Source: Muribaculaceae bacterium Isolate-110 (HZI) (GTDB taxonomy: Bacteria > Bacteroidota > Bacteroidia > Bacteroidales > Muribaculaceae). From it: DNA of 36,392 nt. Shown piece after piece: positions 20,329 to 36,221 of this stretch (positions within the stretch are counted from its first letter, which is position 1; each line of letters begins with the position of its first letter). Both the position numbers and the translations under genes were made by a program. A model generated the notes under the pieces. That model saw nothing but the letters and a program-made list of their open reading frames with translations, did not search any database and was not told the origin of the DNA. The stretch covers positions 1 to 36,392 of the forward strand of contig RIBL01000023.1 in assembly GCA_003762875.1 (NCBI GenBank), written 5' to 3'.

Positions 20329-21290
20329 CCAAAGAAAATCTCCGCATAGTGTTTCTCGGCACACCTGATTTTGCCGTAGAAAGCCTTGAGGCAATCCTCG
20401 CCAACGGTTATAACGTGGTGGGGGTAGTGACAATGCCCGACAAACCTGCCGGACGTGGCCACAAGATGTATCAGTCGCCGGTCAAACTCTGTGCCATGAG
20501 CCATGGCATCGAGGTGTTACAGCCCGTCAGGCTTAAAGACCCAGAGTTTGTCGACCGTCTGCGTGCTCTTGAAGCCGACCTGTTTATCGTCATAGCCTTC
20601 CGCATGCTCCCCGAAGTGGTGTGGACTATGCCGCGTCTGGGCACATTCAACCTCCACGCTTCTCTGCTGCCGCGCTACCGCGGTGCCGCTCCTATCAACC
20701 GCGCCGTAATGAACGGCGACACCGAGACGGGCGTCACAACATTCTTCCTGAAACACGAAATCGACACCGGCGACATTATCTCGCAGGAACGGGTGGAGAT
20801 ACTCCCCACCGACAACGTCGGCGATGTGCATGACCGCCTGATGCATCTCGGCGCGAAACTCACCGTCAAGACCATCGACGATATCATTGCCGGAACACTA
20901 CGCCCCATCCCGCAGGACCAACTCATCGGTGACACCGCCCCCACTCCTGCCCCGAAAATATTCAAAGAGGACTGCGAGATATGCTGGAACGCCCCGGCCG
21001 AGACAATCCACAATCATGTGCGCGGACTCTCGCCCTATCCCGCCGCGTGGTCTACGCTCATATCCGATGATACAGAGCAAGGTGCCGTCAAGATATTCGA
21101 GACCGCGATTCTTCACGACACGGCTCCGCTCGCTCCCGGCGAAATTGCCATTCAGGGTGACACGCTCATCGTAGGCACCGCCACTGCCCCCGTAAGCATA
21201 CTTTCGCTCCAGGCTCCCGGCAAACGTCGTGTCACCACGGCCGAATATCTCCGCGGCGCACGCCTCGTCACTCCGAGATTCAAGGCATAA
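20325..21290 (+). CDS. fmt: Methionyl-tRNA formyltransferase
   Basis: Formylates Met-tRNAfMet using 10-formyl-THF, for translation initiation. From the ATG at 20325, which overlaps the porU stop as ATGA, the product has 321 residues. Landmarks are VFLGTPDFAV (10-18), MPDKPAGRG, the folate-site motif HASLLPRYRGAAPI (111-124), then FLKHEIDTGDII with the active-site Asp near 147-150. The C-terminal tRNA-binding barrel contains GLSPYPAAW. Length is normal (310-325). A longer in-frame extension from 20199 lies inside porU and is rejected. The ATGA overlap indicates translational coupling with the sortase, an unusual partner; fmt is more often with def. Confidence 0.95.
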   Translation: MTKENLRIVFLGTPDFAVESLEAILANGYNVVGVVTMPDKPAGRGHKMYQSPVKLCAMSHGIEVLQPVRLKDPEFVDRLRALEADLFIVIAFRMLPEVVWTMPRLGTFNLHASLLPRYRGAAPINRAVMNGDTETGVTTFFLKHEIDTGDIISQERVEILPTDNVGDVHDRLMHLGAKLTVKTIDDIIAGTLRPIPQDQLIGDTAPTPAPKIFKEDCEICWNAPAETIHNHVRGLSPYPAAWSTLISDDTEQGAVKIFETAILHDTAPLAPGEIAIQGDTLIVGTATAPVSILSLQAPGKRRVTTAEYLRGARLVTPRFKA

Positions 21291-21306
21291 TATCGGGCAT
21301 CGAGGG

Positions 21307-21427
21307 GATACAAAAGGACAAAAGTCTCAAAAGAAACAGAAGTTTTTTATTTTACAGGCTATAAGATTTTCAGCCATGAAAAAATAAAAAACTTCTGTTT
21401 CTTTTGAGACTTTTGTCCTTTTGTATC
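21307..21427. repeat. Palindromic repeat copy A: 47-bp perfect inverted repeat
   Basis: Arms 21307-21353 and 21381-21427 are perfect reverse complements, separated by a 27-nt loop, and occupy nearly all of the 152-bp gap between convergent fmt and the pectate lyase. Each arm is built of short modules in order P-R-Q-S: P GATACAAAA, R GGACAAAA, Q GTCTCAAAA, S GAAACAGAA, then a T-run. GC-rich caps (GGGGA on the left, TCTCCCC on the right) close the base. The transcript from either side would form a 47-bp duplex, so a bidirectional 3'-end or RNase III-type signal is plausible. Related units occur at 29493-29720 and 36180-36221. Confidence 0.9.
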
Positions 21428-21442
21428 TCCCCGATCAGGGAT

Positions 21443-23860
21443 TTAGAATATCTTCACGAGCTTGGATGAATAGTTGACCAAAGCCGTCTTGAGAGCAGAG
21501 ATGACATCATAGTTTGTATCCTCGGTGGCATTGTCGAATGTCCACTGGAAATCACCCTTGTTGAGACGTCCGGCTCCGTAGAATCCCATCACAGTTGCGG
21601 GCACTTCGGCGGCGGGCTGTGCAGTGTAGGTGTGCATGAGTGACGGATTGGTGTCAAAGTTGCTGTAGGATGTATTACCAAACTTGGTCACATATGATGC
21701 CGGCACCTGCTCGTCGCGCGATGATGCCTCGTAGCAGTCAAAATCGTCGGCCGAGGCAGTGTGGGTGATGACAGTGTAGTTGCTCGAAGCACCCTTTTCG
21801 GCATACAGGTTGCCGAAACTCTTTATCATGCCGCCATCCTCGCCCGAGAATGTGCCGTCACCCTTACCATCAGTACCCTGCTTGGATATCATCATAGGGT
21901 CTTTGGTGTGACGATAGAAATTGCTTTCCACAAATATGCTTGACCCCATGGTGGCTCCTACGCCATATTTGGCCACACCGTCATAATAGTTGTTCCAGAC
22001 ATGCGTGGTGATGGTGCGCACGCGGGGATGACGCGAATCACTGTGGTCAAACCAGTTGTGATGATAATCGGCATAGTCCTCGGTCGACTCGCTCTTCATG
22101 CCGCAAAGCGATGTCTTGCCATTGTCCCAGAAGTGGTTGTAGGCCACAGTTATGTAGCGTGTATTGCCTTTGATGTCGACAGTGCCGTCACCCTTGGCCT
22201 GGTCCTTGTCTCCTCCTACGCTTCCGTAGAAAAAGTCCATGTGGTGCACCCAGCAATGAGCGTTTTGGGTGTCAAACGACAGGGCGTCGTCCATACAGCA
22301 CATATTGGCGAAGTTGCGCATCTCGACTGACGAGCAGTTACGTATCAGGAATCCAAATCCCCACGTAGTGGCGTCATCACCGATGCCCTCGACAGTGACA
22401 TTGACAGGGGCATAAGCGTTTTTACCCTTTATCTGGAGACCTTCGGCAGAGCTGGAGAACGAATCCATATCGGTATCCTTGATTGTGCCGACTATACGCA
22501 CACATATGGGCTCCTTTGCAGTACCTTTCTGCAAAGCATCCATAATGGCCTGCAGACCTGTAAATTCCCTATAGGCCTTGTCATAAAACACCTTGCATGT
22601 CACGGTCTTGGCGGTCTCAGCTGTGACATAAATCACAGTGGCATTATCCTTTAGCTCGCCGTTCTCCTTGTACGCACCGATACCAGAACCGTCATAGGGA
22701 GCTGTAACCGCGTTGCGCAGGAACGCAAATCCCGAGCGGTCGTGGGCCTTGACACTCATGTCTGTGGCTTCGGAGGCCGAAGCGGTGTCTTCGGTGCCGT
22801 CAATCACGGGCACGACCTTGAGGGCATAGACATTTGCGGGGAGTCCGACCATGTCGGCACGTCCATAGGTGCCATAGTCGCGCACGAGCTCGCGGTCGAT
22901 GCGGGTATAGTCGGCATACTTGCCACCCTTGACATACACATTATATGATGTGGCACCCTCAAACGGGGTCCATTTCACATACGCGCTCTCAAGCCAGCCT
23001 TTGGCCTCGGTGATGTTGACACCGCGGTTGATTATCTCACCCTCCGAACCTGTAGGAATGCCCTTGGTGAAGGATATGGTGCTGACGTTTCTGAGATATT
23101 CGTCGGTCCAGTCGGCAGCCTTGGGGGTCACCGTCACTTTGCCGGTAGTCTTGTCGAGGTCTACGCTCTCAAGCTCGGCGGTATTGTAATATTTCACCGA
23201 ATTGTCAGCGATAGTGAGCATCATCTGATTGGCCATCGGATTCATGGCCACCGCATGGTCGGGGTCAGAGGGTGTAGGGCCGACAGGACCTTCGCCCTCG
23301 CCTGTAACTTCTATCTTGTAAAAATACATGCCTCCGTTAGTGGAAAGAGTCACATCTCCATCGGCAGTGACTGTACCTTTATGCGTTACATTAGTTTTAC
23401 TTGTCGCAGCACTTTCCTCGCTGAAACCAGCGGAAGCCGTGACATTACTTGCAAGGACATAGCGGGCGACACTTGATGAAGAACATTTAGCCAACACTGT
23501 GATATTGTCACCGGCCTTGAGCGACGGGATGGTTATGGTGGCCTCTGAGGCATTTAGCGTAAAACAACCTGTCTTGGGGTCAATCCTTACCTGATCAGCC
23601 TTAGTTGCCGATACATGCAGACCCTTTGTAAAGTCAAGCTCCTGTCCGTTGGCTATAAGGGTCTGATTGGAAAGAACGAGACCATTGCCCCATCGTTCTT
23701 TATCGGAATCATATGTCCAATTAACTTTATCGGCATTGAGATTATTTTTGTCAGTCGTGCCCAGCGTAGTGAAATCCCAGGTCTGGGCATTTGCGCCAAA
23801 TGTAATAATAGCTATGGCAGCGGTCAGAAGGCCGCGGAGCGAGAGTAAAGACTTCTTCAT
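21443..23860 (-). CDS. Secreted PL1-family pectate lyase
   Basis: A predicted secreted pectin-degrading enzyme of 805 residues. A signal peptide (about 1-25, ending ANAQ) is followed by a beta-rich N-terminal region (about 26-186), a Gly/Pro linker near 187-200, a fibronectin-III-like region (about 290-360), and a right-handed parallel beta-helix of PL1 type (about 390-760). Visible PL1 features are HCWVHHMDFFYG (535-546), the calcium-site segment GDGTVDIKG (557-565, Asp562), DYHHNWFDHSDSRHPRVR (598-615, catalytic Arg region) and VWNNYYDG. No T9SS sorting domain is on this protein, whose end is LVNYSSKLVKIF. The gene for a small secreted protein bearing such a tail overlaps its start by 4 nt. 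There is no SusCD pair nearby. The extracellular or periplasmic site is not settled. Confidence 0.86.
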   Translation of the reverse strand: MKKSLLSLRGLLTAAIAIITFGANAQTWDFTTLGTTDKNNLNADKVNWTYDSDKERWGNGLVLSNQTLIANGQELDFTKGLHVSATKADQVRIDPKTGCFTLNASEATITIPSLKAGDNITVLAKCSSSSVARYVLASNVTASAGFSEESAATSKTNVTHKGTVTADGDVTLSTNGGMYFYKIEVTGEGEGPVGPTPSDPDHAVAMNPMANQMMLTIADNSVKYYNTAELESVDLDKTTGKVTVTPKAADWTDEYLRNVSTISFTKGIPTGSEGEIINRGVNITEAKGWLESAYVKWTPFEGATSYNVYVKGGKYADYTRIDRELVRDYGTYGRADMVGLPANVYALKVVPVIDGTEDTASASEATDMSVKAHDRSGFAFLRNAVTAPYDGSGIGAYKENGELKDNATVIYVTAETAKTVTCKVFYDKAYREFTGLQAIMDALQKGTAKEPICVRIVGTIKDTDMDSFSSSAEGLQIKGKNAYAPVNVTVEGIGDDATTWGFGFLIRNCSSVEMRNFANMCCMDDALSFDTQNAHCWVHHMDFFYGSVGGDKDQAKGDGTVDIKGNTRYITVAYNHFWDNGKTSLCGMKSESTEDYADYHHNWFDHSDSRHPRVRTITTHVWNNYYDGVAKYGVGATMGSSIFVESNFYRHTKDPMMISKQGTDGKGDGTFSGEDGGMIKSFGNLYAEKGASSNYTVITHTASADDFDCYEASSRDEQVPASYVTKFGNTSYSNFDTNPSLMHTYTAQPAAEVPATVMGFYGAGRLNKGDFQWTFDNATEDTNYDVISALKTALVNYSSKLVKIF

Positions 23861-24222
23861 TTCACAAGCACTTTTTGACCGTTAACAATATATACCCCCG
23901 CTTTGAGCCCCTCGGGAGTGTCGGCCACACGCTGGCCCTTGAGATTGTAGACTCCGCTATTTTTCACAGAGTCGGCAATGATTTGATCGATAGCGGTCTG
24001 CTCGTCATGCGTAAGATTCACAGCCACTTCCGACATGTCGGCCGACAGGGTGGTGTCGTCAGAGAAATTAAGTATCACATTATCGCCGTCAAAAGTGATG
24101 CGCACAAGCTCCCTTGTCTCAGGGGTGCCGCCGATGGTGGTGACAATCTTCGAGTCGGCCCACATGGCCACTGCGCCGCCCAACAAGAGTGCGCACAATG
24201 ACATTCTTAAAGTGTTATCCAT
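23857..24222 (-). CDS. Small secreted protein with a T9SS type A-like C-terminal tail
   Basis: A 121-residue protein from the ATG at 24222; a longer frame up to 24303 would cover the hairpin region and lacks a better start. Residues 1-22 form a signal peptide (MDNTLRMSLCALLLGGAVAM). Residues 37-70 have the beta pattern RITFDGDNVILNFSDDTTLSADMSEV, seen in many Bacteroidales secreted proteins. Residues 88-121 (GVYNLKGQRVA, then GLKAGVYIVNGQKVLVK) resemble the type A sorting domain of T9SS cargo. Its stop overlaps the pectate lyase start by 4 nt, so they are translationally coupled. Function unknown. It could be a partner of the lyase, or the remains of a fused protein. Confidence 0.72.
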   Translation of the reverse strand: MDNTLRMSLCALLLGGAVAMWADSKIVTTIGGTPETRELVRITFDGDNVILNFSDDTTLSADMSEVAVNLTHDEQTAIDQIIADSVKNSGVYNLKGQRVADTPEGLKAGVYIVNGQKVLVK

Positions 24223-24260
24223 GGTTATTGAAAGTAAAATAAGTATCAGATTATAAGGGG

Positions 24261-24306
24261 AATGTACGGACAGTATTGGCCACACACCCGACTGTCCATA
24301 CATATT
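24261..24306 (-). terminator. Hairpin between mscL and the small secreted protein gene
   Basis: Arms 24261-24274 and 24291-24304 pair over about 12-14 bp with one weak pair. No T-run follows on the minus strand, so this is either a weak terminator of mscL or an mRNA structure ahead of the small gene. No clear -7 box separates it from the ATG at 24222. Confidence 0.45.
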
Positions 24307-24311
24307 GTTTT

Positions 24312-24331
24312 AGCTCCGTCCGCGCGGAGCC
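24312..24331 (-). terminator. Short GC-rich hairpin just after mscL
   Basis: GCTCCG (24313-24318) pairs with CGGAGC (24325-24330) only 5 bp past the mscL stop. Minus-strand sequence after it is AT-rich but A-rich rather than T-rich, so termination is uncertain. Confidence 0.4.
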
Positions 24332-24335
24332 TGTA

Positions 24336-24761
24336 TTACTTTTTCTCCTTGAGCAGATCGCGTATCTCGGTGAGCAGCACCTCTTCCTTGGAGGGAGCGG
24401 GAGCAGGGGCCGGAGCCTCCTCCTTCTTGCGTTTGAGCTGATTGATGGCCTTGATGGCTACAAATATGCAGAAAGCCACGATAATGAAGTCGACGAGAGT
24501 CTGCACCCATGAGCCCCAGTTCATTGTGACCTCGGGCGTGAGCACCTCCTGTGTCTGACTGTCGACAACGGCCTTTTGTATCACCCACTTGTAGTCGGTG
24601 AAATTCATACCGCCGGTGACTACGCCTACGAGCGGCATTATGATGTCGTCGACAAGTGATGAAATTATCTTGCCGAAAGCGGCACCTATCACAACGCCGA
24701 CAGCCATGTCTATGACATTGCCGCGCATTGCAAACTCCTTAAATTCCTTGAAAAATGACAT
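24336..24761 (-). CDS. mscL: Large-conductance mechanosensitive channel MscL
   Basis: An inner-membrane channel that opens at high membrane tension and protects cells against hypo-osmotic shock. The 141 residues start [37 protein letters not shown] (amphipathic helix and TM1). A periplasmic loop with [29 protein letters not shown] (TM2) follows, then a charged C-terminal helix [29 protein letters not shown]. The sequence order and length are normal. It has its own promoter at 24808-24839. Confidence 0.96.
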
Positions 24762-24807
24762 TTTAATACTGATTAAGAGAGGGTGTTGAAAAAAACGAAT
24801 TTGGGAA

Positions 24808-24839
24808 CAAATTTAGATAATAACAGGCGATTTTTACAA
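24808..24839 (-). promoter_or_regulatory. Promoter of mscL
   Basis: TAAATTTG lies on the minus strand at 24815-24808, and a TTG element at 24839-24837 gives a spacer of 21 bp. It starts transcription about 40 bp before the mscL ATG. Confidence 0.6.
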
Positions 24840-24975
24840 TAAGTTTTCTAAAAAAATGTTATACCGACATCAAATTCACGACAAATGGTGTGAACACATC
24901 CCCGCCAATATATAATAATGTATAACGATGCTACTTTTTTCGGTGCAAATTGTTAGATGATTAAAAAATATTTAG
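24840..24975. other. AT-rich divergent spacer between mscL and gapA promoters
   Basis: The gap between the two divergent genes (24762-25058) is AT-rich and carries the two promoters. The middle part has poly-A/T runs (for example AAAAAATG, AATATATAATAATG) but no gene, hairpin or repeat that I can support. AT-rich DNA here may act as an UP-like element; that is inference. Confidence 0.4.
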
Positions 24976-24983
24976 TAATTTTG
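24976..24983 (+). promoter_or_regulatory. -7 box of the gapA promoter
   Basis: TAATTTTG at 24976-24983 is a perfect Bacteroidetes -7 box. The best -33 TTG (24950-24952) is 23 bp away, slightly long. The transcript would have a leader of about 70 nt before the gapA ATG. Confidence 0.6.
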
Positions 24984-25055
24984 TCGCGCTTATTAGATAG
25001 GCGTTTCCAAAGGAATCAAATCAATTCTAAAAAATAAAACCCAATTTATTTTTAA

Positions 25056-26066
<1,011 letters not shown>

Positions 26067-26092
26067 TAAGCCACCTCTGACAAGAGCATATG

Positions 26093-26126
26093 TCCCCCTC
26101 GTCCCTCTGGCGAGGGGGATTTTTTT
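26093..26126 (+). terminator. Strong terminator of gapA
   Basis: TCCCCCTCG (26093-26101) pairs perfectly with CGAGGGGGA (26111-26119) over a 9-nt loop, followed by seven Ts (26120-26126). It lies 26 bp after the gapA stop. Confidence 0.95.
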
Positions 26127-26360
26127 GTACACTGTTGCCGCGGCTCTATTCCGGCAGTGTGAGCACTTAGAGTTCGTGTTTAATAACACAAGCTGTCGCT
26201 GCATTTTACTCTGACATTTTGGCGCATTACAGATTATTGCACCGACATTTCGGCTTGGGCCTTAAAAAGCCCCCCAATGTTTTCAATTGTTAAGAAAACT
26301 CATTCGCAACCCCATAAGAGTTAAATAATATTTACCACACAATGTTTTTTAGCATAAAAA
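26127..26360. other. Intergenic stretch without a recognisable gene
   Basis: The stretch between the gapA terminator and the ncRNA promoter (26361) has no convincing open frame. It has a small hairpin near 26128-26160 (CACTG...CAGTG), a GGGC/GCCC stem near 26258-26273 and a run of AT-rich DNA before 26361. I see no repeat-family copy here. Confidence 0.4.
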
Positions 26361-26391
26361 TTTGCAGATAGCGAAAATCTCCCTACCTTTG
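26361..26391 (+). promoter_or_regulatory. Promoter of the candidate ncRNA
   Basis: A TTTG -33 element at 26361-26364 and a TACCTTTG -7 box at 26384-26391 have a 19-bp spacer, a near-ideal match. No start codon with a worthwhile frame follows. Confidence 0.75.
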
Positions 26392-26397
26392 TATCAG

Positions 26398-26568
26398 TTT
26401 TTCATGGTATTAGATTTAAGGTAAGAAGATTATTCGTCGGGATGACGGATAATTTTTTTTATACTTAGTCCTGAGATGCCCCGATTCCATATATTTTCAA
26501 CGACAGGCATCTCTGTTTTTTACCACCACGTTCCAAGAGGTTGCTGAGACTACTTGGAACGTTTTTTT
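26398..26568 (+). ncRNA. Candidate small RNA of about 170 nt with three hairpins
   Basis: A strong promoter ends at 26391, so transcription would start near 26398. Three stems follow. H1 has 10 bp (26429-26438 with 26444-26453, one wobble) and eight Ts. H2 has 8 bp (26473-26480 with 26506-26513) and six Ts. H3 has 10 bp (26528-26537 with 26553-26562) and seven Ts. Each T-run is a possible 3' end, so transcripts of about 62, 123 and 170 nt are expected. uvrA has its own promoter downstream (26590-26597), so this is not simply a uvrA leader. No ORF of note lies inside. The 5' segment TTCATGGTATTAGATTTAAG seems familiar to me from other Bacteroidales intergenic regions, but I cannot verify this or name a family. 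Confidence 0.62.
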
Positions 26569-26589
26569 CGCCCTCAGCAAAAAAAATCG

Positions 26590-26597
26590 TAACTTTG
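26590..26597 (+). promoter_or_regulatory. -7 box of the uvrA promoter
   Basis: TAACTTTG at 26590-26597 lies 27 bp before the uvrA ATG. The -33 region falls next to the T-run of the ncRNA terminator (26562-26568), with no clean TTG. It makes uvrA independent of the ncRNA. Confidence 0.55.
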
Positions 26598-26623
26598 TAT
26601 CTTACACACAACATCTCCCGACA

Positions 26624-29491
26624 ATGAACGATAGCCGACAATATATCTCCGTGCGCGGAGCCAAGGTAAACAATCTCAAAGACATCGACGTAGACATTCC
26701 CCGCGGCAGCCTCGTGGTCATCACCGGCGTGTCGGGCTCGGGCAAGTCGTCACTCGCGTTTGACACCCTCTATGCCGAGGGACAGCGACGCTATGTCGAG
26801 AGCCTCAGCAGCTACGCACGCCAGTTTATGGGCAAGATGCCCAAGCCCGAATGCAACGCCATACTCGGACTCCCGCCGGCTATAGCGATAGAGCAGAAGG
26901 TCAACACGCGCAATCCGCGAAGCACCGTTGGCACCTCGACTGAAATCTATGATTACCTGCGCCTGCTCTTCGGGCGCGTGGGCCACACTTACTCGCCCGT
27001 CAGCGGCATGGAGGTGAGGAAACACACCGTAGATGACGTGGCGAAGTTTGCCACCGGCTATCCCGACGGCACACGTCTGGCTGTGCTCGCTCCGGTCATG
27101 CTGCCAGAGGGGCGCAGACTCGTGTCGCAGCTCGATGTGTTTCTCAAGGCCGGCTATGCCCGTGTGATGTGTGGCGAAGAGTTTCTGGAGCTGGAAGAGA
27201 TTATCTCACAGATGCGCGACGACAAATACACCGGAAGCATGGAGCCGTCAGACTACATGCTCGTGGTCGACCGTCTGGCCGTCTCGCACGAAGGCGACGA
27301 GCTGAGCCGCCTGGCCGACTCGGCCGAGACAGCCTTCTTCGAGGGTCACGACTCTCTCACCCTGATGGTGTGGGAGCCGGAAGGCGGACGGGTGACGCGC
27401 GAGTTCTCCAAGAAATTCGAGGCCGACGGCATACGCTTCGAGGAACCCTCCGACATGATGTTCAACTTCAACAACCCCGTCGGAGCATGCCCCGTGTGTG
27501 GTGGTTTCGGTAGGGTGCTCGGCATCGACGAGCGTCTGGTCGTACCCAACACCTCGCTCTCGGTCTATGACGAGGCCGTGGCATGCTGGCGCGGAGAGAA
27601 GATGGGCGAATGGCGCAGCGTGTTTATCCACGACGCCATCCAGTTTGGTTTTCCAGTCCACACCCCCTATGCCGACCTCACGCCCGAGCAGAAATCGCTC
27701 CTGTGGCACGGCCCTACCCCCGAGCAGATGCGCACGGCCAAGCTGACCTATCCCGAGTTTCCGAGCATCGACGAGTTTTTCAAGATGGTCGACTCCAACC
27801 AATACAAGATACAATATCGCGTAATGCGCGCCCGCTATCAAGGCAAGACAGTGTGTCACGCATGTCACGGCTCGCGTCTGCGTCCCGAAGCCGACTATGT
27901 AAAGGTGGGCGGACACACCATAGGCCAGCTCGTGAGCATGCCGGTGAGCGACCTTCAGGAATTTTTCCGCACACTCACGCTCGACGACCATGACGCCGGC
28001 ATAGCGCGCCGCGTGCTCGCCGAGATCAACAACCGCCTGGGCTATCTCGTGGAGGTGGGCCTGGGCTACCTCACCCTCGACCGCCTCAGCAACTCGCTCT
28101 CGGGCGGCGAGAGCCAGCGCATCAATCTGGCCACCTCGCTCGGCAGCAGTCTCGTGGGCTCGCTCTACATACTCGACGAGCCGTCCATCGGACTCCATTC
28201 ACGCGACACGGGCCGGCTCATCACCGTGCTCAAAAAGCTCCGCGACCTGGGCAACACCGTGGTGGTGGTGGAGCACGACGAGGAGATAATGCGCGAGGCC
28301 GACTATCTCATCGACGTAGGCCCCGATGCGGGACGCCTCGGTGGCGAGATAATCTTCCAGGGTAACCCCTCGAGCATCGACGACCTCACCTCGGCCCCCG
28401 GAGCCAAGACCAGCTACACAGCCCGCTATCTGAGCGGCGCGCTCACCATCCCCGTGCCCCGCGAGCGTCGCCGCTGGCGCGACTCGATAGTCATCAAGGG
28501 TGCGCGCGAGCATAATCTCAAGGATGTCGACGTCACTTTCCCGCTGGGCGTCATGACTGTGGTCACCGGCGTGTCGGGCTCGGGCAAATCTACCCTCGTG
28601 CGCGACATTCTCTATCGCGCGCTCAATCGCAAACTCGGCAATCCAGGTGACGCTCCGGCCTTTCACCGCTCGCTCTCGGGCGACATCTCGCGCATAAGTG
28701 CCGTGGAATTTGTCGACCAGAACCCTATCGGCAAGTCGACACGCTCCAACCCCGCCACCTATCTCAAAGCCTTTGAGGAAATACGCAAGCTCTATGCCTC
28801 CACTCAGGGAGCCAAGCAGATGGGCTTCACGGCCTCGGACTTCTCGTTCAACTCCGACGGCGGACGCTGCGAGGCCTGCAAGGGCGACGGCTACATCACC
28901 ATCGAGATGCAGTTTATGGCCGACATCACCATCCCCTGCGAGGAGTGTCACGGCAAACGTTATCAGAAGGAGATTCTCGAGATAGAGTATCGCGGCAAAA
29001 ACATCTACGACATCCTCGAGATGACCATCAACCAGGCCATAGAGTTTTTCTCGGAAGAAGCCGGCACGCAGGAAAAACGCATTGTCAAACGTCTCAAACC
29101 GCTCCAGGACGTAGGTCTCGGCTACATAAAGGTAGGACAGAACTCTTCATCGCTCTCGGGCGGCGAGAACCAGCGCGTCAAGCTCGCGTCATTCTTTGCC
29201 GACGAGTCGCGCCAACCCACTATGTACATTTTTGACGAGCCGACCACAGGTCTGCACTTCAACGACATCGCCACGCTCATGAAATCGTTTGACCGTCTCA
29301 TTGCCATGGGTCACACGGTGCTGATTATCGAGCACAACATGGATGTCATCAAGTGTGCCGACTATGTCATCGACATGGGCCCCGAGGGGGGCGACCGCGG
29401 CGGCAACCTCGTCATTGCCGGCACGCCCGAACAGGTGGCTGCATGCCCTGAATCACACACCGGCCGCTACCTCAAAGAGAAACTCCAATAA
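26624..29491 (+). CDS. uvrA: Excinuclease ABC subunit A
   Basis: DNA-damage recognition ATPase of nucleotide excision repair, which loads UvrB. The 955 residues carry two ABC ATPase halves. Walker A GVSGSGKSS is near 35-43 and GVSGSGKST near 649-657. Zinc modules are CPVC (Cys289) with CHAC (Cys411), and CEAC (Cys749) with CEEC (Cys772). Signatures are LSGGESQRINLATSLG and LSGGENQRVKLASF, and the Walker B segments are LYILDEPSIGLH and MYIFDEPTTGLH. Everything expected of a working enzyme is present and length is normal. It is followed at once by repeat copy B and is convergent with the lipoprotein operon. Confidence 0.98.
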   Translation: MNDSRQYISVRGAKVNNLKDIDVDIPRGSLVVITGVSGSGKSSLAFDTLYAEGQRRYVESLSSYARQFMGKMPKPECNAILGLPPAIAIEQKVNTRNPRSTVGTSTEIYDYLRLLFGRVGHTYSPVSGMEVRKHTVDDVAKFATGYPDGTRLAVLAPVMLPEGRRLVSQLDVFLKAGYARVMCGEEFLELEEIISQMRDDKYTGSMEPSDYMLVVDRLAVSHEGDELSRLADSAETAFFEGHDSLTLMVWEPEGGRVTREFSKKFEADGIRFEEPSDMMFNFNNPVGACPVCGGFGRVLGIDERLVVPNTSLSVYDEAVACWRGEKMGEWRSVFIHDAIQFGFPVHTPYADLTPEQKSLLWHGPTPEQMRTAKLTYPEFPSIDEFFKMVDSNQYKIQYRVMRARYQGKTVCHACHGSRLRPEADYVKVGGHTIGQLVSMPVSDLQEFFRTLTLDDHDAGIARRVLAEINNRLGYLVEVGLGYLTLDRLSNSLSGGESQRINLATSLGSSLVGSLYILDEPSIGLHSRDTGRLITVLKKLRDLGNTVVVVEHDEEIMREADYLIDVGPDAGRLGGEIIFQGNPSSIDDLTSAPGAKTSYTARYLSGALTIPVPRERRRWRDSIVIKGAREHNLKDVDVTFPLGVMTVVTGVSGSGKSTLVRDILYRALNRKLGNPGDAPAFHRSLSGDISRISAVEFVDQNPIGKSTRSNPATYLKAFEEIRKLYASTQGAKQMGFTASDFSFNSDGGRCEACKGDGYITIEMQFMADITIPCEECHGKRYQKEILEIEYRGKNIYDILEMTINQAIEFFSEEAGTQEKRIVKRLKPLQDVGLGYIKVGQNSSSLSGGENQRVKLASFFADESRQPTMYIFDEPTTGLHFNDIATLMKSFDRLIAMGHTVLIIEHNMDVIKCADYVIDMGPEGGDRGGNLVIAGTPEQVAACPESHTGRYLKEKLQ

Positions 29492-29492
29492 A

Positions 29493-29720
29493 GGGAGATA
29501 CAAAAGTTTCAAAAGGACAGAAGAAACATAAGTTTTTTTATTTCCTGCGCACCGGTGACGTCGCAGTGGAGATACAAAAGGACAAAAGTTTCAAAAGAAA
29601 CATAAGTTTTTATATTCAAGGCACATAACGGTGCGCAGAAAATAGAAAACTTATGTTTCTTTTGAAACTTTTGTCCTTTTGTATCTCCTTCTCGGAGACT
29701 TTTGAAACTTTTGTATCTCC
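29493..29720. repeat. Compound palindromic repeat copy B (four units, nested)
   Basis: Four units of the copy A family fill the gap between uvrA and the lipoprotein gene. B1 (about 29493-29539, forward) has module order P-Q-R-S. B2 (29568-29610, forward) and B3 (29646-29688, inverted) have order P-R-Q-S and form a perfect 43-bp inverted repeat with a 35-nt loop. B4 (29694-29720, inverted) is truncated after P-Q. The first 22 nt of B1 (29494-29515) pair with B4 (29699-29720), so a short outer stem encloses the 43-bp inner one. Downstream of S, B1 and B3 also share a segment around CTGCGCACC (29544-29552; complement near 29631-29639), so the true unit is longer than the modules. Confidence 0.9.
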
Positions 29721-29728
29721 TTCTTGGA

Positions 29729-31999
29729 TTAGTATACGAGTTCGAGGTCGTCGAGCCACATGGTCGAGCCGACACCACCGGTGAAGTAATCACCGTTACG
29801 GCTTGCCGATGCGACAATCATTATATATTTGAAGTCGAGCGAGCCGTTGACATCATCAAACGGTATATAGAACTCTACCATGCCGTCGCCGGATGTAGCT
29901 CCCTCAAATACTTTTTCACCATAGGCTACGACATTTGAAGCATCCTTTTTAAATAACTTTGATGTTTTTGTCCTGATGACAACAGGCCATGTATTATATT
30001 CGTCATCGCCATTCTCGCTTTTAAGATCATCCGAGAGAAGTGCCATATAGATTATACCTGTATCCATGTCGCCCTTGCTGACAGTTGACATACTTGTATG
30101 AGTAACAGCGACAGGCGCATATTTGATATAACCCCTCAGACCCTTTGGACGGACCGGTGTCTCAAACGGACGGCCAAAGCCAAGCACTCCGTCTGTACCA
30201 TCTGTCTTAAGATATTGGCCAACAAATACATTACCGGCTGCAAATTTACCAATACCAAACATACTCGGATAAGCAGACTCAAGTTTAATCGAATATTTTC
30301 CGGAATGTTTGACTGTTTCATCCGGTGTTGTCACGTTTATGTTCATTTTCATAGAACCGTGGTTTCCACAATCCCAGAAGCGGCCATCCAGCTCAGGCAC
30401 AGCACAAGGAAGCCACAATCCGTTTTTGTTAGACGGAGAAGCCGAACCGCTAAACCAATCCTCAAATCCGGCATTGGGGAGCTGGGGATATGCGACAGTC
30501 GAGAATGTCAGCTCATCGGCCGAGGTGTAGTCGTCGACCACGAGACGGTAGGCATATTCGGCTCCGGCCTGAAGGTCGGTGAGATTTACGGTGAGGTTTG
30601 TGCCCTCGAGAGTACCCTCGACAAATGTCCAGTCCTCATAAGAGCGAGCCTGACCTAAGAGTTTCACCTCAAAGCCCATGCGTGTTCCCGGTTTGGTCAC
30701 TTCGGCGGCAATCGTGGCGGCGGTATATGACACGTCGCTCGGCTTAACCTCCACAAGCTGACCGGGAGCATCAGTAATATTGAAGGCCAAGCTCAGCACC
30801 GAAGTCTTGCCCTGCGCGTCTGTCGCCTGAATGTCGAGCTGATACTCGCCTGCGGACAGAGTGTTGGTGAGCTGCTCCTCAAGATTGAGACGGAGATTGG
30901 TCACCTCGCCCTCCACAGGCTCGTTACGGTTGTCAAACGCCTTGAAGTTGATGCCCTTTTCGGCAAGATTGGCCAGATGGGTGACATTGATATTGCTGTT
31001 GAGCAGATCGTAGTCTTTCTCAAGGCCGGCCTGTGTGAGCAGATTGCCTGAGATAATCACAGCCGAGAGGGGCGACGAACCGATAATATGTATCGAGCGG
31101 CGGCCAATGTTGCCCGGCTCGCCGAGCACGGGGCGCGAGGCGTCAAAGCCGTCAATGCCTACAATCTCGGGAGCAAGGGCTATGAGCACATCTTCGACCG
31201 TACCCTCGACAGGCTCGGGGTTGACCTCGATGTCGAAATACGCGCCGCCGATCTCTATGTCGCCGCCGGTGGCGTCATACTTGACATTGAAATGATATTC
31301 GGTGGCACGCGCGAGGTTGGGAGCCTCAGCCACGTCGGGGTCGGTGTATTCGCCCGAGCGTGTGAACTCCTTGCCTGTGTTATCTGTACCTTTGATGGTC
31401 CATGTGAAGCCCTTGGTGCGGCTGTTGATCATGAAATATCCCTTCTCGGCCAACTTGTCACCCTCGAATGTAAGGCTGTGTGACCCGTCGGTGATACCGT
31501 CGTTGAGTCCGATGGTGAGGCTCACGTCATGAAGCACATCCTCGAGTCGCTCGCTGAGCGTAAGGCTCACGAGTGTATTGCGCACTGTACACACGATGTC
31601 GACCGGTGTGGTCGAGCCGGTGGCGATGTCAAAGGGAGTGGTGCCGTGATAGCGTATGCCGTCCCATGATGCGGGGATGGAGTCGCCCACCCATGCTTCG
31701 GCAAGATAGCTGCCCGAGGTGAGATTGAGACCCTCGGCGGGAAATGACGAGAGGCCGTTGTATTTGTACAGCAGATTTCTCTGCGAATCGCTGATCCATA
31801 TCAGGGCCTTGGTGCAAAGGTCGTTGTGCTGTTCTTCGGTCAGCGAGCGCGACACCACCTTGATGTCGGACATCACCGACGTGCGGAGCGTCATTTTACC
31901 CTCGCCTGCGCCATAGCTGATAAGGCTTTCGTCACGACAGCTTGTGGCGGTGAAGCCGAGAAGCATTGCTGCGACGCTATATAATATCTTATTTTTCAT
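29729..31999 (-). CDS. DUF4493/PCMD-domain lipoprotein (third gene of operon)
   Basis: A predicted outer-membrane lipoprotein of 756 residues. The lipobox ends TSC (Cys21) and is followed by RDES, acidic residues of the type linked to surface exposure in Bacteroidetes. The N-terminal region (about 30-250) is of DUF4493 type. A middle beta domain follows (about 265-405), then a fibronectin-III-like repeat (about 415-500: DVSYTAATIAAEVTK, LTDLQAGAEYAYRL). The C-terminal domain (about 506-756) starts LPNAGFEDW and includes GFGRPFETPVRPKGLRGYIKYAP and a final WLDDLELVY; it resembles PCMD, a putative carbohydrate-binding or -metabolising domain. Two paralogues lie upstream. The function may be glycan binding or adhesion, but it is unproven. 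Confidence 0.8.
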   Translation of the reverse strand: MKNKILYSVAAMLLGFTATSCRDESLISYGAGEGKMTLRTSVMSDIKVVSRSLTEEQHNDLCTKALIWISDSQRNLLYKYNGLSSFPAEGLNLTSGSYLAEAWVGDSIPASWDGIRYHGTTPFDIATGSTTPVDIVCTVRNTLVSLTLSERLEDVLHDVSLTIGLNDGITDGSHSLTFEGDKLAEKGYFMINSRTKGFTWTIKGTDNTGKEFTRSGEYTDPDVAEAPNLARATEYHFNVKYDATGGDIEIGGAYFDIEVNPEPVEGTVEDVLIALAPEIVGIDGFDASRPVLGEPGNIGRRSIHIIGSSPLSAVIISGNLLTQAGLEKDYDLLNSNINVTHLANLAEKGINFKAFDNRNEPVEGEVTNLRLNLEEQLTNTLSAGEYQLDIQATDAQGKTSVLSLAFNITDAPGQLVEVKPSDVSYTAATIAAEVTKPGTRMGFEVKLLGQARSYEDWTFVEGTLEGTNLTVNLTDLQAGAEYAYRLVVDDYTSADELTFSTVAYPQLPNAGFEDWFSGSASPSNKNGLWLPCAVPELDGRFWDCGNHGSMKMNINVTTPDETVKHSGKYSIKLESAYPSMFGIGKFAAGNVFVGQYLKTDGTDGVLGFGRPFETPVRPKGLRGYIKYAPVAVTHTSMSTVSKGDMDTGIIYMALLSDDLKSENGDDEYNTWPVVIRTKTSKLFKKDASNVVAYGEKVFEGATSGDGMVEFYIPFDDVNGSLDFKYIMIVASASRNGDYFTGGVGSTMWLDDLELVY

Positions 32000-32025
32000 T
32001 TTTTCAGGTTTTTGATACTCCGTTT

Positions 32026-33390
32026 TTAGTTCTGGAATTTAAGGTCCTGGATTGTGACATTCCCCATATTATCCCTTACAGTAAGACGGAATGTATGGAT
32101 TCGGCCCGGCTCGTCATCAAGAGCAAGCAGAGGGATGAATGGCGAAAGATCAAACGGTATCTCGTACTGTCCAATTACCTCACTACCTATCTTGAATCCA
32201 AATCCTGTAAGGGCTGCTGTCAAATCCATATTCTCACTATCGGGATCAGAAGGATCTATCTTGCTATTTTCAGGATATGCAAGATCAAATTTTGACGTAA
32301 GTCCGACACTGTTAAGAAATTCGGTAGTCAGATAGGGAGATATTATCTCTACTTCAATATTTGCAAGTGGTTCTTTCGACTTGATTGTAAGTATATACTC
32401 TCCGTCTACCGCAGGCGTGACTGCATCCTTATCAAATGTTGCACCGATTTCGATATTCTCATCCGACGGGTTTTCGGGCTGGTCGGGGCCGGGCTGGTCA
32501 GGACCGGGGCCGGGCTCTTCGGGCCACTCCTCGGTGTCGGGATGCTTGTCGGGGTCGGTCGAGGGTGTCTCGCCGGGACGCACTGTCGAGTTGACATTGC
32601 TCTCGATAACCTCAAAGTCGATTTTGATGCCGCTGTCAGCCCCGGTGATGTCACCAAACTCGTCGGGGAGTATCGGGTTGCCGGTATTGAGCGAGAACGA
32701 GAAGATGTAATAGTTGCCGCGCTTGGCATCGGTGACATTCTTTGTGGCCGAGACGGTCTGCCCCTTCACAGTGCCGGTGAATGTGGCAATGATTGTGGGA
32801 TTGTCCTCGGCAGGATAGAAGTAGCCGTAGCGGGTCTCGTTGGCCGCCCAGGTGAGCGAAGTGCCGGCCACACCGGCCACCACGTCGACATGCGAGTCGT
32901 CGCTCATGGCCTTGGTGAGCTCTTCGGAGAAACGTATCTCCACCTTGACCGAAGCAAAGTCGCAGGTCAAGGTGCCGATATAGGTCACATTGTTGTTGAC
33001 CACAGTGAAGTCGGCCGAACCCTCATAGTAAGGTTCGCTCCACGCAGCGTCGGCGGGCTCGTGACTGCGCACTCTCACGGTGTAGTCGCCTACGGGGAGG
33101 GTGAATATCTGGGGCATTGTCGAGTAGGTCCACGAGCACGGTTTGCCCTCATAAGTTGCTATCACGTCCGAGCCTTTCTCGGTCACGGTGACGAGATAGT
33201 CGGAGGTGTCGACGATAGCGCGGCCTATGGCTGTGACTTCATCGTTGACTGTCACATCCATCTTTGAGCGTGACACTCCGCCGGTGTTGGCGGGATATGT
33301 TCCCTGCTCCGCGGGGGTCCAGTCGTCACACGCGCTAAACGCCACGACTGACATCAATGCCACTAAGAGCGAATATATTCTGGTTTTCAT
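32026..33390 (-). CDS. DUF4493 lipoprotein without PCMD (second gene of operon)
   Basis: A 454-residue lipoprotein: the lipobox ends FSAC (Cys21) and DDW follows. A DUF4493-like domain occupies about 40-275, with the typical PVGDYTVRVRSHEPADAAWSEPYYEGSADFTV segment. A Pro/Gly/Asp-rich linker (TEEWPEEPGPGPDQPG, about 285-310) leads to one further beta domain (about 315-454) whose end, RLTVRDNMGNVTIQDLKF, parallels the middle domain of the paralogues. It stops there, lacking the fibronectin-like and PCMD parts. It lies 14 bp after the first gene and 26 bp before the third on the minus strand. Function unknown; probably surface-exposed. Confidence 0.8.
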   Translation of the reverse strand: MKTRIYSLLVALMSVVAFSACDDWTPAEQGTYPANTGGVSRSKMDVTVNDEVTAIGRAIVDTSDYLVTVTEKGSDVIATYEGKPCSWTYSTMPQIFTLPVGDYTVRVRSHEPADAAWSEPYYEGSADFTVVNNNVTYIGTLTCDFASVKVEIRFSEELTKAMSDDSHVDVVAGVAGTSLTWAANETRYGYFYPAEDNPTIIATFTGTVKGQTVSATKNVTDAKRGNYYIFSFSLNTGNPILPDEFGDITGADSGIKIDFEVIESNVNSTVRPGETPSTDPDKHPDTEEWPEEPGPGPDQPGPDQPENPSDENIEIGATFDKDAVTPAVDGEYILTIKSKEPLANIEVEIISPYLTTEFLNSVGLTSKFDLAYPENSKIDPSDPDSENMDLTAALTGFGFKIGSEVIGQYEIPFDLSPFIPLLALDDEPGRIHTFRLTVRDNMGNVTIQDLKFQN

Positions 33391-33404
33391 TGTTTCTTAT
33401 AGAT

Positions 33405-36023
33405 TTAATAGTTAAGCACGATGTCGTCGATGTAAAGCTCAGAGCCGACATATTCACCACCGGAAGTGTTATTAGAACCAGGTGTATGCCAAAATTTAAC
33501 ATCTTTGGCCAAAGCTGCAGAATTGGAAGAAGAGACAAATCTCACACTGATCTTAGATGCATTTTTTGCCGTTGAATCATAAGTGAGAGGCATTTCTACC
33601 AATTTATACGAACCTGTTTCATAAAGATTAGTTTCAGCCTTTGCAATTGGATTATCATTAATATCATACACTATAACTTCCGCGTAGCCATAATCACCGT
33701 TTCCAGATGTTACAACATCATAATGATAATAAAAAGAAACCAATGAAGGTCGCGAGGTAAACTGATAGCCATAATTCGGAATATAATTTATACACGAGCC
33801 AAGAAATAACTCTCCAGGTGTAATAGTATTACATGTATTAAATCCAGCATTCTCTTTTAGTGACCAGGCCCAACCAGCTGCCGCTGAATTACCGCTACCC
33901 CAGCCAACAGTTCTAATCAGAGCGGCATTGTTTCCTCTGTTTTGACGGTCGGAAAACAAATTAGCAACACCTTGTGTATGGCCATCACCAGATTTCGTGG
34001 TACCAACACCTCCGCCATGTGCTGAAGATTTCGTACTACGTCCATTTGCCGGAATTGTACCGGATGTCGCCTTATAAGCACAACCACCTGTTATCCCTCC
34101 ACTACCGCTGCCTGAGCCAAATGTAGAGATGGTAAGGTCGTTGACAGTCGACCAAACCGAACCGTCAGCTATTTTCCACAAATATTGATAGTCACCTTTC
34201 TTTTCAGATGTCCATTCGTCAAAACCTGCATCCGGCAACTGAGCGGCTTCCTCGGTGGTGAGGCTGGCGGTGGTACTCTTTTCATTGCCAAGACGGGCGC
34301 GGAATGTGTAAGTTGTCGATGCGCTCAGACCTGTAATATGATATACCGAAGTACCCACACCTGCTACTCGTGACGAACTGCTTGAATAAGTGTCTGATTC
34401 AAGTGTGGTATTGACTTCACTATAAGTAACGCCACCATCGGTCGAAACCTCAAACTTCACATCGGACTTTTGAGCAAGAAGCTCATCGTTCATAAAGTCG
34501 AGGGTCGCGTAAACGTGAGTTGCAAATGCATTTGTAGCAGCCTCCACAACACGAAGATCGGGCACCTTGAGTGTATATTTCTCACCCGCTACATTATCGG
34601 TCTCGGGACGTACCAAGACAGGATTTTCAGCCGTGATAGCCTTACCTTCCACTTCAAGAGTGTAGACACCGCTCTGAGCATTGAGGGAGGCAGACTTAAC
34701 TGTAAGAAGGTCGCGTGTGCCACGGTCATTGTCGGCATAGAGTCGCACATCAGCTATGTTTCCACCATTATAATGCAGAAGCACGGTAGCCTTGCCATTG
34801 TCGGTAATAATCGAGCCGTCAAGTATCTCGAGAACGAGACGCTCGACGCTGACGCTGAAGAGGTCGAGTGTCTTCTCCTTGCCCTGGAGGTCGGTGACGG
34901 TGAGCGCGAACGACGAGGTGTTGTCGGCACCGTCGACATAGAGCAGCTTGGACACGAGGCCGCTGAAATCAACGACGGCAAACACCGACTTGTTGCCTGT
35001 CAGACCGAGGGTCTTTACGCCATAGCTTTCGAGCAGCGACTGTGCGGCTCCGGGATTGGCGAGGTCGATGCTCTCGGGCCAGCCCTTGGAACGGAGATAA
35101 GACGAGCCGACATTGAGCACGGCGGTGTCGATCTTGCCGCGGGCCACGATGGTGGTCTTGAGCAAGCCGTCATACGCGCTGCCCGAGACGTTGGCTATTA
35201 CACTGCCTGCCTCGAAGCCTTCGGTGAGAATCTCGGGAGCGGCTGCAAGCATGGGCAGATTGGCGTCGGTGATGTCAATCTCCACATCCTTGACTTCGGC
35301 GATAGTGTCGTCAAAAGTGAGTCGGAGTGTCTCGGCCGATCCGGCTTCGACATCTATATTTATATTATAGCAGTGGCGCGCCTCGGCGGTGAAGGGGTCG
35401 ACCTGTGCGGTGGCCTGCTTGCCGTTGGGCTTGGTGAAAGCGATGCTCACCATGACGCTGCCGGGCTTGACATAGAGACGGCGTGTCTCATCGGAAGCCC
35501 ACACATAGTCGGTGCCTGAGGCGGTGGTGACTGTAACGGTGTAGTCAGTCATATAATCTGTGAAACCCTTGGAGAGTGTCACATTGACCATGGCATTGGC
35601 CAGACGCACGGGCAGATTGACAGGTGTGGACGACTCGTTTTTCACAGTGAGCTGCTGCGAGCCGTAATACCAGGGGCTGTCCCAGCCTTCCGAGTCGGCC
35701 GAGCCATAAGCGGCCTCGAGTGTGTACTGGCCGGTGTTGACACGCTGCTGCGAGCCAAACTCCGCCACAGTGTAAATCTTAGGGGGGATGGCTCCCGAGG
35801 CATGGGTAAGCGTGAGGGTCAGATCGTCAGGGGTGATTTCCAATGAAGTCGCGCGTGAGCGGTCTCCGCGAGGTCCCGTGAGGGGACTTGGGTCAAAGTC
35901 GAGGGCGAGCGCGATGTATCCTGCATCGCTCCCCGAGGCGAGTTGGGTCTCCTCGCTACATCCCGTTGTCACAGACCACAGGAGTGTGGCGCAGGCTACG
36001 CCCGCCAAAATGTTCTTTTTCAT
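33405..36023 (-). CDS. DUF4493/PCMD-like lipoprotein (first gene of operon)
   Basis: The largest of the three paralogues, 872 residues. The lipobox ends TTGC (Cys22) and SEET follows. A DUF4493-type region lies at about 30-250 (LEAAYGSADSEGWDSPWYYGSQQLTV). A middle beta domain (about 260-400) and fibronectin-like repeats (about 400-590) follow. The C-terminal PCMD-like domain (about 595-872) begins LPDAGFDEW, includes a Gly/Ser-rich stretch (STFGSGSGSGGITGGCAY), PGELFLGSCIN and SRPSLVSFYYHYD, and ends YVGSELYIDDIVLNY. It is first in the operon, with a promoter 73 bp upstream. The 3' third is clearly AT-richer than the rest: a hand count of one 60-base line, 33601-33660, gives 28% GC against 52% for 35281-35340. 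Confidence 0.8.
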   Translation of the reverse strand: MKKNILAGVACATLLWSVTTGCSEETQLASGSDAGYIALALDFDPSPLTGPRGDRSRATSLEITPDDLTLTLTHASGAIPPKIYTVAEFGSQQRVNTGQYTLEAAYGSADSEGWDSPWYYGSQQLTVKNESSTPVNLPVRLANAMVNVTLSKGFTDYMTDYTVTVTTASGTDYVWASDETRRLYVKPGSVMVSIAFTKPNGKQATAQVDPFTAEARHCYNINIDVEAGSAETLRLTFDDTIAEVKDVEIDITDANLPMLAAAPEILTEGFEAGSVIANVSGSAYDGLLKTTIVARGKIDTAVLNVGSSYLRSKGWPESIDLANPGAAQSLLESYGVKTLGLTGNKSVFAVVDFSGLVSKLLYVDGADNTSSFALTVTDLQGKEKTLDLFSVSVERLVLEILDGSIITDNGKATVLLHYNGGNIADVRLYADNDRGTRDLLTVKSASLNAQSGVYTLEVEGKAITAENPVLVRPETDNVAGEKYTLKVPDLRVVEAATNAFATHVYATLDFMNDELLAQKSDVKFEVSTDGGVTYSEVNTTLESDTYSSSSSRVAGVGTSVYHITGLSASTTYTFRARLGNEKSTTASLTTEEAAQLPDAGFDEWTSEKKGDYQYLWKIADGSVWSTVNDLTISTFGSGSGSGGITGGCAYKATSGTIPANGRSTKSSAHGGGVGTTKSGDGHTQGVANLFSDRQNRGNNAALIRTVGWGSGNSAAAGWAWSLKENAGFNTCNTITPGELFLGSCINYIPNYGYQFTSRPSLVSFYYHYDVVTSGNGDYGYAEVIVYDINDNPIAKAETNLYETGSYKLVEMPLTYDSTAKNASKISVRFVSSSNSAALAKDVKFWHTPGSNNTSGGEYVGSELYIDDIVLNY

Positions 36024-36095
36024 AAATATTTTATGTTGCGCTAACGTGAAGTTAGGATTGGTTTTACTGTATAGCTGGTTTGCTCTAAACTATGA

Positions 36096-36126
36096 CAAAA
36101 TTAGTAAAAATTTCCACAATCAACAA
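36096..36126 (-). promoter_or_regulatory. Promoter of the DUF4493 lipoprotein operon
   Basis: A TAATTTTG -7 box on the minus strand (36103-36096) and a TTG element (36126-36124) are separated by 20 bp. It lies upstream of the first ATG at 36023; no competing promoter was seen between the three genes. Confidence 0.65.
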
Positions 36127-36179
36127 TCTTTTTAACATTCCGCTGACAAATTATTGGACATTCTGACCAATAAAAGTGG

Positions 36180-36221
36180 GATACAAAAGTTTCAAAAGGA
36201 CAGAAGAAACATAAGTTTTTT
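36180..36221 (+). repeat. Palindromic repeat family copy C: a single half-unit
   Basis: A 42-nt stretch identical to the B1 unit (29497-29538), module order P-Q-R-S and a six-T end, in the same orientation. No inverted partner is present in the remaining 171 bp of the window. It lies about 55 bp upstream of the operon promoter's -33 element, and with B1 forms direct repeats around the operon. Confidence 0.85.

Follow-up and report, generated by a model that had tools for sequence, protein, structure and literature searches.

Background

Short repeats lying between bacterial genes have been described under several names. Miniature inverted-repeat transposable elements (MITEs) are gene-less inverted-repeat elements present in many copies beside few complete ones, and the cyanobacterial STRR (short tandemly repeated repetitive) sequences belong to the heptamer repeats, with short tandem modules and a patchy distribution. 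Another heptamer repeat, TAACTGA, is reported from Beggiatoaceae, Cyanobacteria and Bacteroidetes as short tandem modules, patchy across phyla, for which a mobile element is suspected (PMC4679880). REPINs are short inverted hairpin doublets dispersed between genes and believed to be mobilised in trans by an enzyme with a single nuclease-type domain (PMC3116915), and the paired uptake signals of Neisseria and Pasteurellaceae, a repeated motif joined head to head between convergent genes, are taken to act there as terminators (PMC1852404). The intervening sequences (IVS) of 23S rRNA are sporadic hairpin elements of about 430 nt with terminal inverted repeats and one open reading frame (ORF) of about 125 aa, S23; they have been called selfish, with their mobility described as unresolved (PMC4990558). 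The present work concerns a family of modular palindromic repeats at three sites, A, B and C, in Muribaculaceae bacterium Isolate-110 (HZI). The window, i.e. the whole stretch of DNA analysed (36,392 nt, RIBL01000023.1), is the entire contig C18 of a 3.42 Mb genome in 100 contigs.

The repeats in question are intergenic, mostly gene-less, built of 9-nt modules and linked to genes for GxxExxY proteins, whereas IVS lie in 23S rRNA helices and carry S23. They differ from REPINs in having no Y1 transposase beside the units, in a unit that is no REP (repetitive extragenic palindromic) hairpin and in a loop-encoded enzyme of the PD-(D/E)XK type, and from uptake signals in their long multi-module arms, far fewer copies and lack of a fixed core. 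The heptamer repeats have modules of 7 nt instead of 9 nt, and in our data 7-nt arms accompany S23 genes. In contrast to MITEs, the gene-less copies go with no known transposase family, and no target duplication was found. A search of open-access papers returned no report of modular arms around GxxExxY genes or of this repeat family; one paper that mentions GxxExxY presents it as the neighbour of a reverse transcriptase, not in a modular-arm context. In Rfam 15, at the gathering threshold, the repeats had no match and the window gave only a tRNA and FopS. The family thus stands as undescribed, as the initial annotation of the window had supposed, and as kin in build to the S23/IVS elements.

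The link between the window repeats and the GxxExxY gene family is well supported by the results given below. It is somewhat more probable than its opposite that A, B and C represent copies, without the gene, of hairpin elements linked to GxxExxY, and that such copies act as terminators where they land.

The repeat family in the window and in the genome

The initial annotation had described units with a closing segment P, inner modules Q and R, and then S and a T-run. All three sites read as it stated and their motifs lie far above chance counts: GATACAAAAG occurs 8 times in the window against 0.04 expected (one copy, at 24573 on the minus strand, lies outside A, B and C), and CAAAAGNNNCAAAAG, with at most 1 mismatch, was observed 11 times against 0.09 expected. 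Sites A (21299-21435), B (29494-29720) and C (36180-36221) are intergenic, hold no ORF and all belong to one genome-wide modular inverted-repeat family. They and their neighbours are laid out as follows.

20199..21290, plus strand: formyltransferase-domain gene (methionyl-tRNA formyltransferase-like), left of A; the start given is that of the longest frame
21299..21353, plus strand: A, 5' arm, A-rich, order P-R-Q-S and then a T-run; A-type unit at 21311-21337
21354..21380, no strand: A, loop of 27 nt, holding a small inner hairpin
21381..21435, minus strand: A, 3' arm, partner of the 5' arm
21443..23860, minus strand: pectate-lyase domain protein gene, right of A, convergent
26624..29491, plus strand: UvrA-type protein gene, left of B
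29494..29540, plus strand: B1, single unit, order P-Q-R-S; 40/41 identity with the 3' arm beside the GxxExxY gene of the same genome
29568..29610, plus strand: B2, modules in the order P-R-Q-S, 5' arm of a 43-bp palindrome without mismatch
29646..29688, minus strand: B3, 3' arm pairing perfectly with B2; the tail on its inner side matches the B1 tail (CTGCGCACCG)
29699..29720, minus strand: B4, partial unit, P and Q only
29729..31999, minus strand: DUF4493 / PCMD domain protein gene, right of B, convergent
36180..36221, plus strand: C, single P-Q-R-S unit and T-run, close to the contig end; 40/41 identity with the GxxExxY 3' arm

The arms of A (21299-21353 / 21381-21435) pair over 55 nt with 96% complementarity, and those of B2/B3 over 43 nt with 100%. 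Judged by reading the sequence, the module order differs between A and B2/B3 on one side and B1 and C on the other. Since the tails of B1 and B3 match, B looks nested. The FopS match (a small RNA family of Bacteroidetes) lies at 26395-26462 of the window, just upstream of uvrA.

The repeats are not confined to these sites: about 90 sites were found genome-wide, and further species carry them too. Scanning of the whole genome, with the pattern read backwards as the control, gave 55 matches to GATACAAAAGNNNCAAAAG (at most 1 mismatch), 68 A-type units (P-R-Q-S, at most 3 mismatches) and 40 P-Q-R-S units, each against 0 in the reversed control; a looser pattern gave 281 against 36, with positions listed for the first 100 places. 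Merging the stretches around the listed matches with the window gave a catalogue of 76 segments (269 kb) with 92 family sites. Fifty-eight of them, with an inverted-repeat score of at least 20, are clear palindromes, and the 34 scoring below 20 are single units, partial palindromes or long-loop units (4 of these in divergent gaps). The family is therefore a real multi-copy one, in which single, paired-inverted and nested forms all occur, as had been proposed from the window alone.

According to our own simple gene calls, 39 of the 58 palindromes lie in convergent gaps, 16 in tandem gaps, none in divergent gaps and 3 at edges; in 24 of the 39 convergent cases neither stop codon is more than 50 nt away from the arms. 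In 400 kb sampled without bias, as 20 stretches of 20 kb, there were 287 gaps (21 convergent, 246 tandem and 20 divergent), and the family was present in 1, 2 and 1 of them, respectively. Convergent gaps are thus preferred, but few of them are served.

The 5' arm is A-rich (more A than T) in all 58 palindromes, and the autocorrelation of the arms peaks at lag 9 (0.478). Where 32 nt of both arms could be read, in 31 A-type palindromes, partner arms differ at a mean of 1.7 positions, compared with 5.2 for arms taken from different palindromes, in agreement with the earlier claim that arms within a palindrome are alike. Deviations from the consensus were common to both partners in 66 cases and not in 54, whereas shuffling of the partner arms gave a mean of 13 shared deviations and a maximum of 25 in 1000 trials. 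Such covariation does not separate selection on the stem from hairpin-templated repair. Some loops hold small locus-specific hairpins and some contain another modular palindrome, GACAGGAGTACAGGAG.

Modular palindromes of a second family, GACAGGAGNACAGGAG, stand on their own, lie nested within CAAAAG palindromes and surround a broken GxxExxY gene; in the genome of a second species of the genus (G010) they were seen at loci L177 (after uvrA) and L260, and in the present genome (G000) in loops of L012, L015, L020, L061, L065 and L084. Other convergent gaps of this genome contain distinct modular inverted repeats, with ATTAGTA repeats around a GC-rich hairpin at L244 (~3781-3980) and AAGTTAAAA-type repeats at L246 (9906-10022). 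The contig ends C57:1-117, C90:1-117 and the end of C36 (L076, L087 and L072) have in common a sequence of about 117 nt running into a family unit, so that the assembly is broken at some points inside or beside longer repeats that contain the family.

The GxxExxY gene between the same arms

At C25:98284-98764 of this genome two arms of the family enclose a gene for a 125-aa protein of the GxxExxY family (TIGR04256; PDDEXK_3, PF13366), and it is the 3' arm of this gene that B1 and C each match at 40 of 41 positions. In G010 a GxxExxY gene likewise lies within arms of the unit type of G000. The enclosure of a small nuclease gene, here and in a second species of the genus, goes beyond the initial annotation.

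Searching 27 genomes of the genus with PF13366 gave eight rows, which correspond to five GxxExxY loci and two other, longer proteins; one of the five genes is broken into two pieces and one has an inner stop. The flank inverted-repeat scores were 36 in this genome, 31 in G010 (unit as here), 22 in G007 (CGCAGAG modules), 15 for the broken copy of G010 (ACAGGAG modules) and 13 in G002. A score of 15 or more was reached neither by any of 261 ordinary genes of this genome nor by any of 45 uvrA/fmt loci. Both G010 and G007 have GxxExxY arm modules of a type which also forms a gene-less palindrome after uvrA in that genome. When the fetched stretches of this genome were searched for remnants of decayed GxxExxY genes, only the known copy was significant (next best E 0.06).

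The catalytic residues D73, E83 and K85 (model numbering) are invariant in 54 aligned GxxExxY proteins, chosen by us from the 57 readable ones. The AlphaFold2 model of the protein has a mean pLDDT of 92, and Foldseek returned five matches with E of at most 0.001, comprising SSO0001 chains, LHK-Exo and lambda exonuclease (Cas4 and lambda-exonuclease type), with a Holliday-junction resolvase ranked 46th (E 0.24). A sequence search for a relative of solved structure gave none (best E 0.33). The PD-(D/E)XK nuclease fold predicted by the model is well supported.

Distribution among relatives and in other phyla

A three-module pattern was run against 297 genomes of the taxonomic family, G000 included, and matched in seven: 60 times in G000, 32 in G005, 8 in G293, 3 in G010, 2 in G152 and once each in G002 and G189, with G293, G152 and G189 belonging to other genera than G000. 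The reversed pattern gave one match, in a genome without forward matches. Outside the genus, matches with one mismatch were about as frequent as in the reversed control; they were therefore not counted as members and the stricter three-module pattern was used. The distribution is patchy, with strong amplification in two species. Exact-pattern scans of genome-contig and viral-contig collections gave 0 matches, the window's own genome being possibly outside these collections. A genome from another family of the order has 9-nt CTGTCTTTT-type units in a long tandem array with one arm only (L101; G046:C95, 557-1139).

The 9-nt build, also beyond what had been noted before, returns around relatives of the nuclease gene in other phyla. 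Genomes of 84,980 species were scanned with an alignment of three GxxExxY proteins, which yielded 483 relatives; the best 80 were kept and 72 of them scored, 8 being left out for short flanks. A flank score of at least 15 was reached by 45 of the 72 loci, at least 20 by 27 and at least 30 by 8, compared with 1, 0 and 0 when the downstream flanks were swapped between loci (one shuffle). The record titles name Verrucomicrobia, Planctomycetes, Chloroflexi, Acidobacteria, proteobacteria, Bacteroidetes and one Methanophagales archaeon. The arms of the 45 loci show an autocorrelation peak at lag 9 (0.475; other lags 0.25-0.33), the same lag as in this genome, and the 5' arm is purine-rich in 39 of them. 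PF13366 was found in 151 of 296 genomes sampled from Bacteroidota, where 12 of 29 loci scored at least 15 against 0 of 29 swapped (one of 30 loci was left out for length), and 3 of 8 plasmid GxxExxY loci also did so.

In two cases the gene is present in one species and absent between the same two neighbours in another. Sphingomonas parapaucimobilis, which has the GxxExxY gene between fabD and fabG, shows a gap of 464 nt there, and S. paeninsulae, which lacks it, one of 32 nt; the gap between radA and an FAD gene measures 478 nt with the gene in Bacteroides finegoldii and 13 nt without it in Parabacteroides distasonis. The relatives in both comparisons are too divergent for the exact ends of the element. 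The GxxExxY-linked family may be mobile.

S23 genes as a sister case

Since G005 has units but no PF13366 match, the S23 genes (PF05635) were examined. The S23 genes of G005 are without CAAAAG arms, so they do not account for its units. In the genus as a whole, S23 genes lie between inverted modular arms: 16 of 18 loci scored at least 15 and the other two 14 (of the 23 matches above the cut-off, 18 were examined; 2 had no locus and 3 matched weakly within longer frames). Among S23 loci on plasmids, most of which are cyanobacterial, 12 of 16 scored at least 15; they come from 16 of the 27 plasmid records with S23, and L405 and L407 represent one insertion event. The S23 sequence search matches the solved structure 2gsc.

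The best period of the S23 arms was 7 in 20 of 23 and 8 in 3 (13 of the 18 genus loci were used, the rest being short or cut by contig ends), while for 58 GxxExxY arms it was 9 in 30, 8 in 11 and 10 in 7. The C content also differs, at 7% in S23 5' arms and 19% in GxxExxY arms. Within one conjugative plasmid family, Trichormus and Scytonema have the S23 element, through a single insertion common to both, and Nostoc linckia, Microchaete and N. carneum lack it; the insert has 428 bp including a 5-bp duplication, GTAAT, and arms and gene arrived together in this one event. We suggest that S23 elements could be the source of TAACTGA-type heptamers.

On cyanobacterial and other plasmids (among L402-L417, e.g. 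L406 and L411), S23 genes flanked by arms of 7-nt modules occupy places that look like insertions into operons. The neighbouring pairs are cas6 and cas4, cas10 and a cmr3-type gene, and the beta and alpha genes of ribonucleotide reductase.

The palindromes as possible terminators

RNA folding gave z-scores of -15.6 for A on the plus strand, -18.4 for A on the minus strand and -16.1 for B2/B3, while C alone folds weakly (-3.1). The palindromes thus give stable RNA hairpins just after stop codons, as intrinsic terminators do. A U-tract directly 3' of the hairpin was not found, the stems of A and B2/B3 being followed by CCCCGATCAGG or CTTCTCGG.

The downstream region was readable in 24 of 25 uvrA loci of the genus. 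In G009 and G013 the convergent neighbour after uvrA is the same as here, as far as visual inspection of that gene's sequence shows, and the gap, which in this genome holds element B, contains GC-rich hairpins of the ordinary terminator type, accompanied in G013 by an A-run and a T-run. G010 and G007 have other modular palindromes at uvrA, GACAGGAGAACAGGAGAAC and CGCAAAGAACGCAGAGAACGCAAAGAG. The palindromes may act as terminators where they land.

Proposed mechanism and alternative explanations

A complete element would consist of an inverted arm of 9-nt modules, a gene for a GxxExxY protein of about 125 aa and a second inverted arm. The nuclease may cut target DNA at or near the 3' ends of genes, and the element could be copied into the cut through repair or template switching, gene-less palindromes being copied in trans. 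Copies landing between convergent genes would take the place of the ordinary terminator, because the palindrome, whichever strand is transcribed, provides a long hairpin in the RNA whose 3' arm is rich in U. The two arms would be kept alike by selection on the stem or by hairpin-templated repair.

Several results weigh against this. Flank scores were below the threshold at 27 of the 72 cross-phylum loci, 17 of the 29 in the phylum sample and 5 of the 8 on plasmids, and the 32 units of G005 occur in a genome with no PF13366 match at 99% completeness. Around the 43 gene-less palindromes (of 58) with both ends readable no target-site duplication exceeded that in shuffles, and direct repeats at 62 GxxExxY loci, delimited by their own repeats, were in no clear excess (mean 4.58, shuffled 4.32 with a maximum of 4.63). 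The lack of duplications is evidence against simple transposition, or for old copies. As to termination, the T-runs of A and B2/B3 lie inside the stem and none outside, so that the palindromes, if they stop transcription, are not textbook intrinsic terminators. With 1 of 21 convergent gaps occupied in the unbiased sample, the family is not the usual terminator of the host, and the fmt site (A) is uninformative, as the same convergent neighbour was present in no relative compared.

Alternatively, the palindromes could be bidirectional terminators that grew from older hairpins by slippage and hairpin-templated repair, with GxxExxY and S23 as separate selfish genes inserting into them. The position between convergent stop codons, the replacement of a terminator at uvrA, the small locus-specific hairpins inside loops, the nested structure of B, the absence of target-site duplications and the units of G005 without the gene all agree with such a history. 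It does not explain, however, why arms are common to unlinked sites and to different species, and passive insertion does not predict modal arm periods of 9 nt for GxxExxY (30/58) and 7 nt for S23 (20/23). The S23 empty site moreover shows arms and gene arriving as one insert. This explanation appears unlikely, if by no means negligible.

Long inverted repeats might also be kept, with no mobility, as RNase III substrates or stabilisers of mRNA 3' ends, for which perfect stems of 43-55 nt downstream of stop codons would be suitable; as this leaves the patchy species distribution and the linked nuclease gene unaccounted for, it is considered improbable.

A REPIN/RAYT system, in which a Y1 tyrosine transposase would mobilise the units as REP-like sequences, seems very improbable. 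Inverted doublets with a hairpin are found in REPINs (PMC3116915) and at 58 of the 92 sites here, and the genome has one Y1_Tnp gene, at C25:191010. A single unit is not a strong hairpin, though, as the weak folding of C shows, and the gene between the arms encodes GxxExxY and not Y1. No unit (at most 1 mismatch) lies within 3 kb of the Y1_Tnp gene, the nearest being at 187755 and 196281 (3.2 and 4.9 kb away), and on this position the Y1 transposase was rejected as the driver.

A DNA-uptake-like motif often pairing into terminators, as in Neisseria and Pasteurellaceae, whose paired signals lie most often between tail-to-tail genes (Kingsford et al. 2007, PMC1852404), can hardly explain a unit of about 42 nt with variable modules and 281 loose matches, as opposed to a fixed 9-11-mer in around a thousand or more copies.

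The original observation is confirmed and its interpretation supported, and the view of the three sites as hairpin elements that are linked to GxxExxY but lack the gene extends what had been noted before. Taken together, the data point to a little-noticed class of tiny mobile elements. More tentatively, and with somewhat less than even probability, GxxExxY and S23 genes may each represent the full version of a minimal mobile element. The two would form sister classes, found in a wide range of bacterial phyla and in one archaeal genome or more, with inverted module arrays whose module length is set by the protein (9 nt for GxxExxY, 7 nt for S23). Their gene-less copies, among them those of the window, taking over as terminators, would then be one source of the unexplained palindromic and tandem intergenic repeats of 7-9 nt.

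Significance

If this is true, two very common protein families without a function, GxxExxY and the S23 four-helix bundle, would gain a role, and the movement of S23-bearing intervening sequences, a long-standing puzzle, would become testable through empty sites. A class of low-complexity intergenic repeats would acquire an origin, and there would be an example of terminators between convergent genes giving way to mobile DNA.

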